Origin: Candidatus Nitrosopumilus sp.
Lineage (GTDB): Archaea; Thermoproteota; Nitrososphaeria; Nitrososphaerales; Nitrososphaeraceae
NCBI GenBank assembly: GCA_013694585.1
Contig: JACDCB010000015.1
Coordinates: 1-44,254 of the forward strand
Direction of reading: 5' to 3'
Length of the DNA: 44,254 nucleotides
Below, piece by piece: positions 15,015-17,795 of the stretch. The notes beneath the pieces were generated by a model that worked only from the letters and a program-made list of their open reading frames with translations, was not told the DNA's origin and ran no database searches. The first letter of the stretch is position 1. The number at the start of each line of letters is the position of its first letter. A program made the position numbers and the translations under genes.

Positions 15015-15434
15015 TTAATTGAGTTTGGATTTAATTAACTCAAATGCTTTTTCGGCTTGATCTTTCTTGGGCAATTGGACAAAAAAAATATTACTGCTTT
15101 TTGATTCATTCGGTGCGATACCTAACATTCCAGCCGTTGAAAGAAATCTAAAAAAATCGATAGTTTCATTTGCGTATAATAAGAAATCAAATTCAAGGTC
15201 GGCATTAAGAAATTTTACATTCAAATTTACAAAAACATGGCGTCCATCATCATAAATATTTAAGTTAGTATCAATCAAATTAGGCTTGCCATATGATTTA
15301 CTCATAATATTTTCAAATTGAACATTTTCAACGAGTAAGCAGGGCACTTTAATCTCATTATAGTCAATTACAGAATAACCTAATTTATGAACATTAGCTA
15401 GGAAATCTTCAAGCGAATTCATGTTTCTATTCAA
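15015..15434 (-). CDS. Hypothetical protein, 139 aa
   Basis: I do not recognise the family. It is predicted soluble, with alternating hydrophobic and polar stretches in the middle (VFVNLNVKFLNADLEFDFLL) that suggest a beta sheet, and a helical C-terminus (QAEKAFELIKSKLN). Met at residue 5 is an alternative start. It lies 76 bases downstream of the AAA ATPase gene on the same strand and could be the last gene of that operon, which is the only functional hint. Confidence 0.6.
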   Translation of the reverse strand: MNRNMNSLEDFLANVHKLGYSVIDYNEIKVPCLLVENVQFENIMSKSYGKPNLIDTNLNIYDDGRHVFVNLNVKFLNADLEFDFLLYANETIDFFRFLSTAGMLGIAPNESKSSNIFFVQLPKKDQAEKAFELIKSKLN

Positions 15435-15510: not shown

Positions 15511-17139
15511 TCAGCAGATTTGGATTGATTTTGCCAGCAGTATTGCCTTTTGAGGATCCTCTGATTTGATTTCATCACTGTCATATTTCTTGCTAAAATA
15601 GAGTAAATCAGCTAGTTTCCATTTGTCAATAGTTACTAGCGTAGTACCATTTTTTTTTATGTTTGTAATATTAGTAGTCAAAATTACTAATTTATCAACT
15701 ACTGAGTTCTTTTTCGTGCTTTTAACGATCTTATCAAAGTTTTTGTTCTTATCAGAATCGACTGCAATCGATATGCCCACCTTCTTTCCCATTTGATCGT
15801 TATAAACTGCATCTAAATAATCGGTATCGATCTTTTCTTCATATTTTTTTACAGTTCCCAATTCATCAAAATAACTTATCAAGTTTCTGATGGCGTCTTT
15901 TACATTCGATTCGACAATGTCTTTATCAATAGATATTTTTCTCATTTTAATAAAATCGGATATCGATATTCCCATAATGCTTCCTCTCAAACGCAATCCT
16001 GGATAGACATTTTTGATTGTCTCTTCAATTGATTGTTCGTCTATATTTGAAGAATTCTTTTTAAAAGACATTTCAAAGGCATGATACAGAACATTTAAGA
16101 TAGATCTTATGTTTCTAAAGTCTGGAAATTCATCATATATTATTTTTATTTTTGATGATAGGTCTTTCTTTTCTGATGATGATAGTTCACTGTTATAATG
16201 CAATACATATTGAAGAACAATACTATTTATTTCGTCAAAGGAATTGGATCCTGCCAAATCAATTTTATAGTTTGCTTTTTCTAGGCGATCGAATAATGAT
16301 GGATTAATCCTTGAAATATCTGCATATAAGGAAGGGGTCGTTACTATCATAAACAGTGCATATGGAACATGTGAATTAATCAATCCTTTCATGTAATCCA
16401 AGGAATTTAAGTTGGTGTCGAACTCATCGATCTGAAAAATAGTAATTTTTTTAAACAATTTATAGTTAATCTTAGCCAAGTTGGTTAGGACCATTGTAAG
16501 ATTTTCAAATGTCTTTAAATCAGAATAATTTAACGTCCCTGTCTTGATAATTTCAGTGATCAAATGTATCTCTATTTTAGTAAAATCATTTGACATTAAT
16601 TCAAATAAATGCTCATAAGATATTCTTATTTTTCTTTCAGTTATTAGTTCTATTTTGTCAGAAATTGAGTTCCCATTGAGTGAGTCAAAAAACCCATATT
16701 TGACTATCTTCTTTACTAACTTTGGATTCTGTATATAACTGTCTTTAAGATAATCAATTAACTTTTCCTTTATAGAGACATAGTATTCTTTTCCAAATCC
16801 GCTTACAATAGAATGAAAGAAATTATCAATCTCCCTTGGTTGAACTTGAGTGAGGTCTACATATGAAATTATTGATTTATCATTAATTTCAGACAAAGTC
16901 TTCATATGCAGTGTTAAATGTGTTTTACCTGAGCCAACGTCTTGGATTACCGTAATTATCTTGAAAAGATCTTCATTCAGAGGCTCAGTACTGTTTAATT
17001 TCAAGTTCAAATCGTTCAAGCAATTTTTAATAGAAGTTAACGCGGCAATGTGCCTTTTCCCCCCAAGAATATTAGCGCTGGATAGAGTAGGTGTGGGACT
17101 ACTGGGAAAAGGATTAACGGTCAGATTGTAAGGAGACAT
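15511..17139 (-). CDS. AAA-type P-loop ATPase with an unusual C-terminal domain
   Basis: The protein opens with YNLTVNPFPSSPTP, a motif recalling the start of ExeA/TniB-type ATPases. It then shows Walker A QDVGSGKT (69-76 counted from the longest frame), Walker B ITIFQIDEFD (about 235-244), a sensor-1-like IVTTPS (268-273) and an Arg-finger candidate in INPSLFDRLE. The Walker A to B distance (about 160 residues) is long, because a helical insert sits between them. The C-terminal 130 residues form a separate alpha/beta part (GKKVGISIAVDSDK, VVDKLVILTTN) whose layout recalls degenerate nuclease-like folds; that is only inference. The ATG at 17139 shares its A with the TGA of the upstream gene (TGATG), so translation is coupled. 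It may act in DNA handling or defence; the function is unknown. Confidence 0.8.
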   Translation of the reverse strand: MSPYNLTVNPFPSSPTPTLSSANILGGKRHIAALTSIKNCLNDLNLKLNSTEPLNEDLFKIITVIQDVGSGKTHLTLHMKTLSEINDKSIISYVDLTQVQPREIDNFFHSIVSGFGKEYYVSIKEKLIDYLKDSYIQNPKLVKKIVKYGFFDSLNGNSISDKIELITERKIRISYEHLFELMSNDFTKIEIHLITEIIKTGTLNYSDLKTFENLTMVLTNLAKINYKLFKKITIFQIDEFDTNLNSLDYMKGLINSHVPYALFMIVTTPSLYADISRINPSLFDRLEKANYKIDLAGSNSFDEINSIVLQYVLHYNSELSSSEKKDLSSKIKIIYDEFPDFRNIRSILNVLYHAFEMSFKKNSSNIDEQSIEETIKNVYPGLRLRGSIMGISISDFIKMRKISIDKDIVESNVKDAIRNLISYFDELGTVKKYEEKIDTDYLDAVYNDQMGKKVGISIAVDSDKNKNFDKIVKSTKKNSVVDKLVILTTNITNIKKNGTTLVTIDKWKLADLLYFSKKYDSDEIKSEDPQKAILLAKSIQIC

Positions 17140-17795
17140 CAAATACACCTCACAAATCCATGGATTATGCCTCTTAGTACTACACCTTCATACCCTCCTG
17201 ATGATAATTCATATTTTTCTGGATACAACTCAATGAGTTCACTTACAAAGTTGTAAAATTCATTGTTAGAAAGATCGCAGGTTTCACATAACTCATCCCT
17301 AACGGAAGAAAGTTCTACCCAACCGATGGAAGTAGATCGATTCACTATTGCTTTGTCAAAGTGTTCTTTAAAGGTGTCGACAGATATTTGGTTATTATCA
17401 TACTCTACTCTATTGGAATCAATCTTTGTGTTACTAATTTTATCTTCGATTCTATTAAAGGAATTCTTAACTTCTGTTAATTCGCAGTCAATTTTTTCTA
17501 CATATTTAAATATGCTATCAGAGTAGTTATTGAGTTTCCTCTGAATACCTATAATAGAATCGTATAGATATTTGAATTTTATATCTGATAGGAGTAAATA
17601 ATCTAAATAGAATTCCTTACCCCAGCAATAAATGTATGTTCCTTTTTTAGATATGCATATTTTATCTTGTGACGTTAGTTCATTCAATTTATCCTCAAAA
17701 TTTTCCTCAGGATATTTTTTCTTTAATTCAGATTTCTTAACTCCGGCAGATCCAAAAGAATTAATATCATCATAGATCATATCTAAATTGGACAC
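17139..17795 (-). CDS. Winged-helix / coiled-coil protein coupled to the AAA ATPase
   Basis: A 218-residue protein with three visible parts. The N-terminus (about 1-65) has a winged-helix-like pattern (GVKKSELKKKYPEENFEDKL, then an ICISKKGTYIY wing). The centre (about 75-130) is a coiled coil with regular heptads (IQRKLNNYSDSIFKYVEKID). The C-terminus (about 150-218) looks like a second winged helix (STSIGWVELSSVRDELCE, ending YEGVVLRGIIHGFV). The start is GTG and the stop overlaps the ATG of the ATPase gene. The design suggests a dimeric DNA-binding adaptor that recruits or loads the ATPase. No family name is known to me. Confidence 0.75.
   Translation of the reverse strand: MSNLDMIYDDINSFGSAGVKKSELKKKYPEENFEDKLNELTSQDKICISKKGTYIYCWGKEFYLDYLLLSDIKFKYLYDSIIGIQRKLNNYSDSIFKYVEKIDCELTEVKNSFNRIEDKISNTKIDSNRVEYDNNQISVDTFKEHFDKAIVNRSTSIGWVELSSVRDELCETCDLSNNEFYNFVSELIELYPEKYELSSGGYEGVVLRGIIHGFVRCI

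Follow-up and report, generated by a model that had tools for sequence, protein, structure and literature searches.

A translationally coupled winged-helix adaptor and AAA+ ATPase of ammonia-oxidizing archaea, putatively related to a candidate antiviral gene pair of Sulfolobales

Introduction

The closest described relatives of the gene pair reported here come from Sulfolobales and their viruses. In the available text of PMC11065993, the viral protein family ADG.51 corresponds to arCOG03737 and has a host homologue, SiRe_2374, whose operon partner SiRe_2373 is an AAA ATPase with a PD-DExK nuclease; the two are proposed there as an abortive-infection or toxin-antitoxin system and as candidate immunity. 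By that text the SiRe_2374/SiRe_2373 system is itself a prediction, no mention of relatives in ammonia-oxidizing archaea (AOA) was found in it, and no experiment on ADG.51 or any family member was found in the part of the literature available. Other described ATPases of relevance are BrxC/PglY of BREX, which are ATP-dependent DNA-binding Orc-like AAA+ proteins and of which BrxC assembles on DNA with ATP (PMC13326643), and Cran1 (PMC12796447), which provides a precedent in that this archaeal ATPase belongs to a family associated with defence and has a role in the cell cycle.

Results

The gene pair

The window, which is the whole stretch of DNA analysed (44,254 nucleotides), contains two adjoining genes on the minus strand, coding for a 218 aa protein (referred to here as the adaptor) and an ATPase.

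17139..17795, minus strand: adaptor gene, 218 aa, winged helix - coiled coil - winged helix (open reading frame, AlphaFold2)
17137..17141, minus strand: TGATG, overlap of adaptor stop and ATPase start, translational coupling (sequence; coupling in 72/72 loci)
15511..17139, minus strand: ATPase gene, AAA+, 542 aa (open reading frame, AlphaFold2, fold search)

Both open reading frames and the TGATG overlap had been reported by an earlier reading made from the sequence only, and all are present. The adaptor TGA (17141-17139) and the ATPase ATG (17139-17137) have one base in common, and the ATPase is thus 542 aa long, counted from that ATG. That reading also took the genes for a dedicated ATPase-adaptor unit with DNA-binding-type domains, which is correct, and the neighbourhood comparison shows the two conserved together elsewhere: across the 72 loci for which both were read, the spacing always falls between a 13 nt overlap and an 8 nt gap. 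None of the four genes of the locus (the pair and two neighbours) matches a curated family above cut-off in Pfam, NCBIfam, PADLOC, PHROGs and PDB sequence searches.

The adaptor

AlphaFold2 models of both proteins were made from alignments of relatives. The adaptor model (mean pLDDT 83) contains a winged helix, a long helix or coiled coil and a second winged helix, in agreement with the layout that the sequence-only reading had proposed.

17619..17795, minus strand: N-terminal winged helix, residues 1-59 (AlphaFold2)
17427..17582, minus strand: coiled coil, residues 72-123, variable length (AlphaFold2)
17169..17381, minus strand: C-terminal winged helix, residues 139-209 (AlphaFold2)

All but one of the 17 invariant adaptor residues are located in the C-terminal winged helix. 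In Foldseek searches, the adaptor finds only generic winged helices among PDB structures and viral models. The Nitrosocaldus-type adaptors (L086, L092, L094, L099, L116) are 402-419 aa long, with a much longer coiled coil and both winged helices retained.

The ATPase

The ATPase model (pLDDT 85.5) has an AAA+ fold followed by a separate alpha/beta domain at the C-terminus.

16921..16944, minus strand: Walker A QDVGSGKT (G, G, K and T invariant in 49/49)
16417..16440, minus strand: Walker B IFQIDEFD (D and E invariant in 49/49)
15514..15927, minus strand: C-terminal alpha/beta domain, PD-(D/E)xK-like, catalytic motif lost (AlphaFold2, homologue comparison)
15757..15816, minus strand: degenerate nuclease motif LDAVYNDQMGKKVGISIAVD, Asp retained, second acid and Lys gone (motif comparison)

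Walker A, Walker B and a TTPS motif are all present as first read, and G68, G70, K71, T72, D237, E238, T267, R284 and R344, which include the catalytic positions, are invariant in 49/49 homologues. The same reading was right in calling the C-terminal domain a degenerate nuclease-like core: the first Asp of the motif is present in 47 of the 49 AOA ATPases and its Lys in none, and of the distant homologues one matches Mrr_cat weakly (L126 in f28; E 0.002) and another, from f48, carries an intact D...DVK motif.

Distribution and selection in AOA

Profile searches find the ATPase in 112 of 330 genomes of the class and the adaptor in 95, each of which also has the ATPase. The pair is present in 50/51 Nitrososphaeraceae genomes and in six from another family, of Nitrosocaldus type; among Nitrosopumilaceae, 34/131 good genomes belonging to 4/20 genera have it, and it is lost in the other 16 genera. 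Four Nitrosopumilus-type representatives of g54 (L098, L100, L131, L132) have the ATPase without a detectable adaptor, and in L100 the Walker A motif is altered (QNVGCGKT). Locus L113 (G032:C24) contains a second, diverged ATPase paralogue (31% identity) that has no adaptor and adjoins a PP2C-like phosphatase gene.

Compared with the close relative L021, on which these values rest because greater distances are saturated, the ATPase has a dN/dS of 0.046 and the adaptor one of 0.11; together with the coupling in 72/72 loci, these low values indicate that the pairing is more than chance. The C-terminal domain, with a dN/dS of 0.020 in the same comparison, is strongly conserved and under purifying selection despite the lost nuclease motif.

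Neighbouring genes and extent of the unit

In this genus, of Candidatus Nitrosocosmicus type going by the nearest named relatives, the pair is flanked by CDC48, ctaB, EF-1beta and DsbA genes (EF-1beta called by sequence appearance), which does not bear out the suggestion that it sits in variable islands. No defence island is apparent around the pair in the neighbourhood comparison. The neighbourhood clusters, in which most neighbours are not annotated individually, contain no conserved transposase or secretion partner family, and no regulated neighbour conserved across lineages.

A further suggestion, that the unit may be larger, also fails. The gene for a 139 aa protein (15015-15434) is an independent AOA core gene found in 218/330 genomes of the class, including most of those without the pair, and its protein family has no database match; it was rejected as a third component, being present without the pair in most Nitrosopumilaceae. 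The divergent 104 aa gene is found only in Nitrosocosmicus-type loci. The unit therefore consists of two genes.

Distant relatives

A search of the phylum with the ATPase profile gives matches in genomes outside the class, again with an adaptor directly upstream. The genomes with these distant relatives are presumably Sulfolobaceae and Thermoproteales, names given as leads. They agree with PMC11065993. In profile-profile comparisons, the AOA and Sulfolobaceae adaptors match at 98.9% (E 1.2e-17) and the ATPases at 98.4% (E 8.4e-15) over 396 columns that include the C-terminal domain; comparison of AOA with Thermoproteales profiles gives E 6e-8 for the adaptor and 7e-9 for the ATPase, and the Thermoproteales and Sulfolobaceae ATPases match one another at E 2e-15. 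Gene order and coupling in both groups are as in the AOA pair, which thus appears to be a distant branch of an archaeal two-gene family spanning several archaeal orders and reaching Thermoproteales and Sulfolobaceae.

The ATPases differ in length. In one class the adaptor is found in 42/81 genomes, among them nearly all members of two families, and where the context was read the downstream ATPase is 250-280 aa and lacks the C-terminal domain; in f40, where 16 genomes match, the ATPase downstream of the adaptor is 440-450 aa. Members of one Thermoproteales genus (L130, L133, L134) have an apparent operon with the order adenylate kinase - adaptor - ATPase - GINS - MCM, and L238 (2512-9101), possibly an integrated element, contains an Orc1/Cdc6-like gene, a 428 aa adaptor-like protein and an NPF-type ATPase, with a second NPF-type ATPase nearby.

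Nuclease motif in accessory and fixed copies

The D...D...K motif is present in 5/5 accessory Sulfolobaceae copies, in 0/9 Sulfolobaceae core copies and in 0/49 AOA copies; the C-terminal nuclease domain is absent from the Thermoproteales ATPases. Each of the five accessory copies is in a genome that has a core copy too, and several adjoin genes that, by the look of their sequence, are IS607/TnpB-like or VapC-like. In trees of both proteins the AOA, core Sulfolobaceae and Thermoproteales sequences each form one clade, with D...DVK or D...NVK lineages beside the AOA clade and intact accessory copies beside the Sulfolobaceae core. These positions in unrooted trees are most simply explained if the nuclease was lost more than once.

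Solo adaptor domains in viruses and a plasmid

One PHROG, of unknown function, gives E 2.5e-21 with the Sulfolobaceae adaptor, and tblastn identifies adaptor relatives in Acidianus two-tailed virus 2 (ATV2), Acidianus rod-shaped virus 3 (ARV3) and plasmid pDL10. These proteins are 96-124 aa long (96 aa for that of pDL10; NC_005562, L244:2350-2640) and align to residues 71-164 of the 166 aa host adaptor, covering the helix and the C-terminal winged helix. This placement is contrary to the available text of PMC11065993, in which the viral proteins are said to retain the N-terminal winged helix and the main text of which does not mention pDL10. The ATV2 and ARV3 proteins are 72-73% identical to the accessory L240 adaptor and about 49% or less to other host copies, and group with L240 at 100/99 support; the pDL10 protein is nearest to the accessory copies L225 and L227, with which it groups (93/94). 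Such relationships are what would be expected of decoys or recruiters aimed at nuclease-bearing copies. Searches of phage and plasmid records with Sulfolobaceae ATPases did not find an ATPase relative, scans of viral contigs with the AOA profiles found no AOA-branch relatives, and phage sequences searched by tblastn with the AOA adaptor yielded no match above chance level.

Discussion

The reading best suited to these data, with a probability of roughly 0.55, is that the pair derives from an ATP-driven DNA-targeting complex that once delivered a nuclease, and that it has here been domesticated as a nuclease-dead, chromosomal DNA-binding ATPase. Fixation is supported by its near-universal presence in Nitrososphaeraceae, by purifying selection and by the housekeeping neighbours within the genus. 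The nearest folds, BrxC and Orc1/Cdc6, are those of DNA-binding ATPases and were counted in favour of this type of activity. The reading also draws on the intact ATPase residues, the family relationship, the distribution of the nuclease motif and the grouping of the solo domains with accessory copies. Because conservation of the C-terminal domain is strong even though its nuclease motif is gone, the AOA complex is most likely domesticated and non-cleaving. The Nitrosopumilus-type genomes with an ATPase and no adaptor count against this reading, and the loss in 16/20 Nitrosopumilaceae genera argues against an essential chromosomal role.

We infer each functional step of a mechanism that fits the observations. 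The adaptor would dimerise through its coiled coil and bind DNA with its N-terminal winged helix, and the conserved C-terminal winged helix would dock on the AAA+ ATPase, of which ATP-dependent oligomers may assemble on the adaptor-bound DNA. In the accessory relatives this assembly would bring the PD-(D/E)xK nuclease to its target DNA, which is probably foreign; the AOA copy may be a domesticated, non-cleaving, ATP-driven complex that binds or remodels chromosomal DNA and is of use to the cell without being indispensable.

Even with a dead nuclease, the ATPase could have a part in defence, and the AOA pair might recognise DNA entering the cell and stop it, through binding or through abortive infection, with no cutting. 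The Sulfolobales relatives are proposed immunity with viral ADG.51 as antagonist, at least in the available text of PMC11065993, and to this extent the hint at defence in the sequence-only reading is plausible for the distant relatives. Solo adaptor domains in two virus families and a plasmid, and a patchy loss in Nitrosopumilaceae that fits a costly defence, point the same way. However, a pair that is single copy, near-universal, syntenic within Nitrososphaeraceae genera and under strong purifying selection, that has lost its nuclease motif, that has no PADLOC match and whose branch has no solo viral homologue in the viral-contig scans and phage tblastn makes a present antiviral or anti-plasmid role unlikely.

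Less probable again is an accessory role in replication or repair, in which the proteins would form a Cdc6/Cdt1-like loader pair working with MCM or repair enzymes. The folds resemble Orc1/Cdc6 and, weakly, Cdt1 winged helices, and in Thermoproteaceae the pair diverges from an endonuclease III-like gene (by sequence appearance). Its position directly upstream of GINS and MCM genes was rejected as a general clue, this linkage being limited to one Thermoproteales genus; moreover, the AOA ATPase and Orc1/Cdc6 do not match in profile comparison, the pair is far from the core orc1 gene in 12 complete AOA genomes, and many complete AOA genomes lack it. A STAND-like transcription regulator, with the adaptor as repressor and the ATPase as signal switch, is improbable, since weak matches of the Sulfolobaceae adaptor winged helices to MarR-type regulators and of the ATPases to nSTAND are set against the lack of a regulated neighbour conserved across lineages and a PD-(D/E)xK-like domain whose intact versions point to DNA processing.

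Around the preferred reading of a domesticated, nuclease-dead complex, a broader scenario can be advanced tentatively, at somewhat less than even odds. A mobile ATPase-nuclease defence cassette would have been domesticated at least twice, in the Sulfolobaceae core and in AOA, with the nuclease lost each time and the ATPase and adaptor retained as a chromosomal DNA-remodelling complex; in Thermoproteales the nuclease domain is missing altogether, and viruses and plasmids would use solitary adaptor domains to poison the active copies. If so, a defence machine has been repeatedly converted into chromosome machinery, and the pattern identifies the targets, among the host copies, of the solo domains in viruses and plasmids. 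The pattern can be tested (accessory copies with an intact nuclease motif, fixed copies without it), and it ties a conserved but unexplained pair in nitrifying archaea of global importance to a Sulfolobales cassette that is a candidate antiviral system, giving functional leads for proteins that no curated family library names.

Comparison with known systems

OLD/PARIS and Cran1 are alike at the level of combining an ATPase with a nuclease. In the OLD proteins the ATPase is of the ABC type and the nuclease is a TOPRIM one; they are therefore not homologous to the AOA ATPase. AAA_22 (ExeA/TniB) matches the ATPase of the window at 15 bits, below the curated cut-off of 27, and gives a weak match in 33/49 members.

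Orc1/Cdc6 (2qby) is the second fold match of the ATPase, and the two have in common an Orc-like AAA+ with a sensor 2 Arg, but the ATPase here lacks the C-terminal winged helix. An Orc1/Cdc6 paralogue was rejected: hhalign gives 7%, a canonical orc1 gene is present separately, the TIGR02928 matches do not include the pair, and in 12 complete AOA genomes the two are not adjacent but 0.33-1.3 Mb apart. The best fold match is to BrxC/PglY of BREX (PF10923; 9zll_B, E 1.2e-5), proteins of 1200-1300 aa compared with 542 aa here (PMC12839542); however, PF10923 is matched by 3/49 members only (best E 7.6e-4). BREX was rejected, with the BrxC/D profile below cut-off and PglZ not found in the genome, which is ~90% complete.

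The first impression that the pair matches no system that can be named stands in that it reaches no curated family above cut-off and is neither BREX nor canonical Orc1/Cdc6, and gives way with respect to its distant SiRe_2374/SiRe_2373 relatives. The Sulfolobales pair has the same operon order, with a two-winged-helix adaptor directly upstream, and SiRe_2373, like the AOA ATPase, is an AAA+ ATPase with a C-terminal PD-(D/E)xK-like domain. The AOA copies differ in having an N-terminal NPF extension, in their single-copy conserved state and in lacking a complete nuclease motif, and the AOA copy is probably a diverged variant of the SiRe_2374/SiRe_2373-type pair rather than a nuclease.
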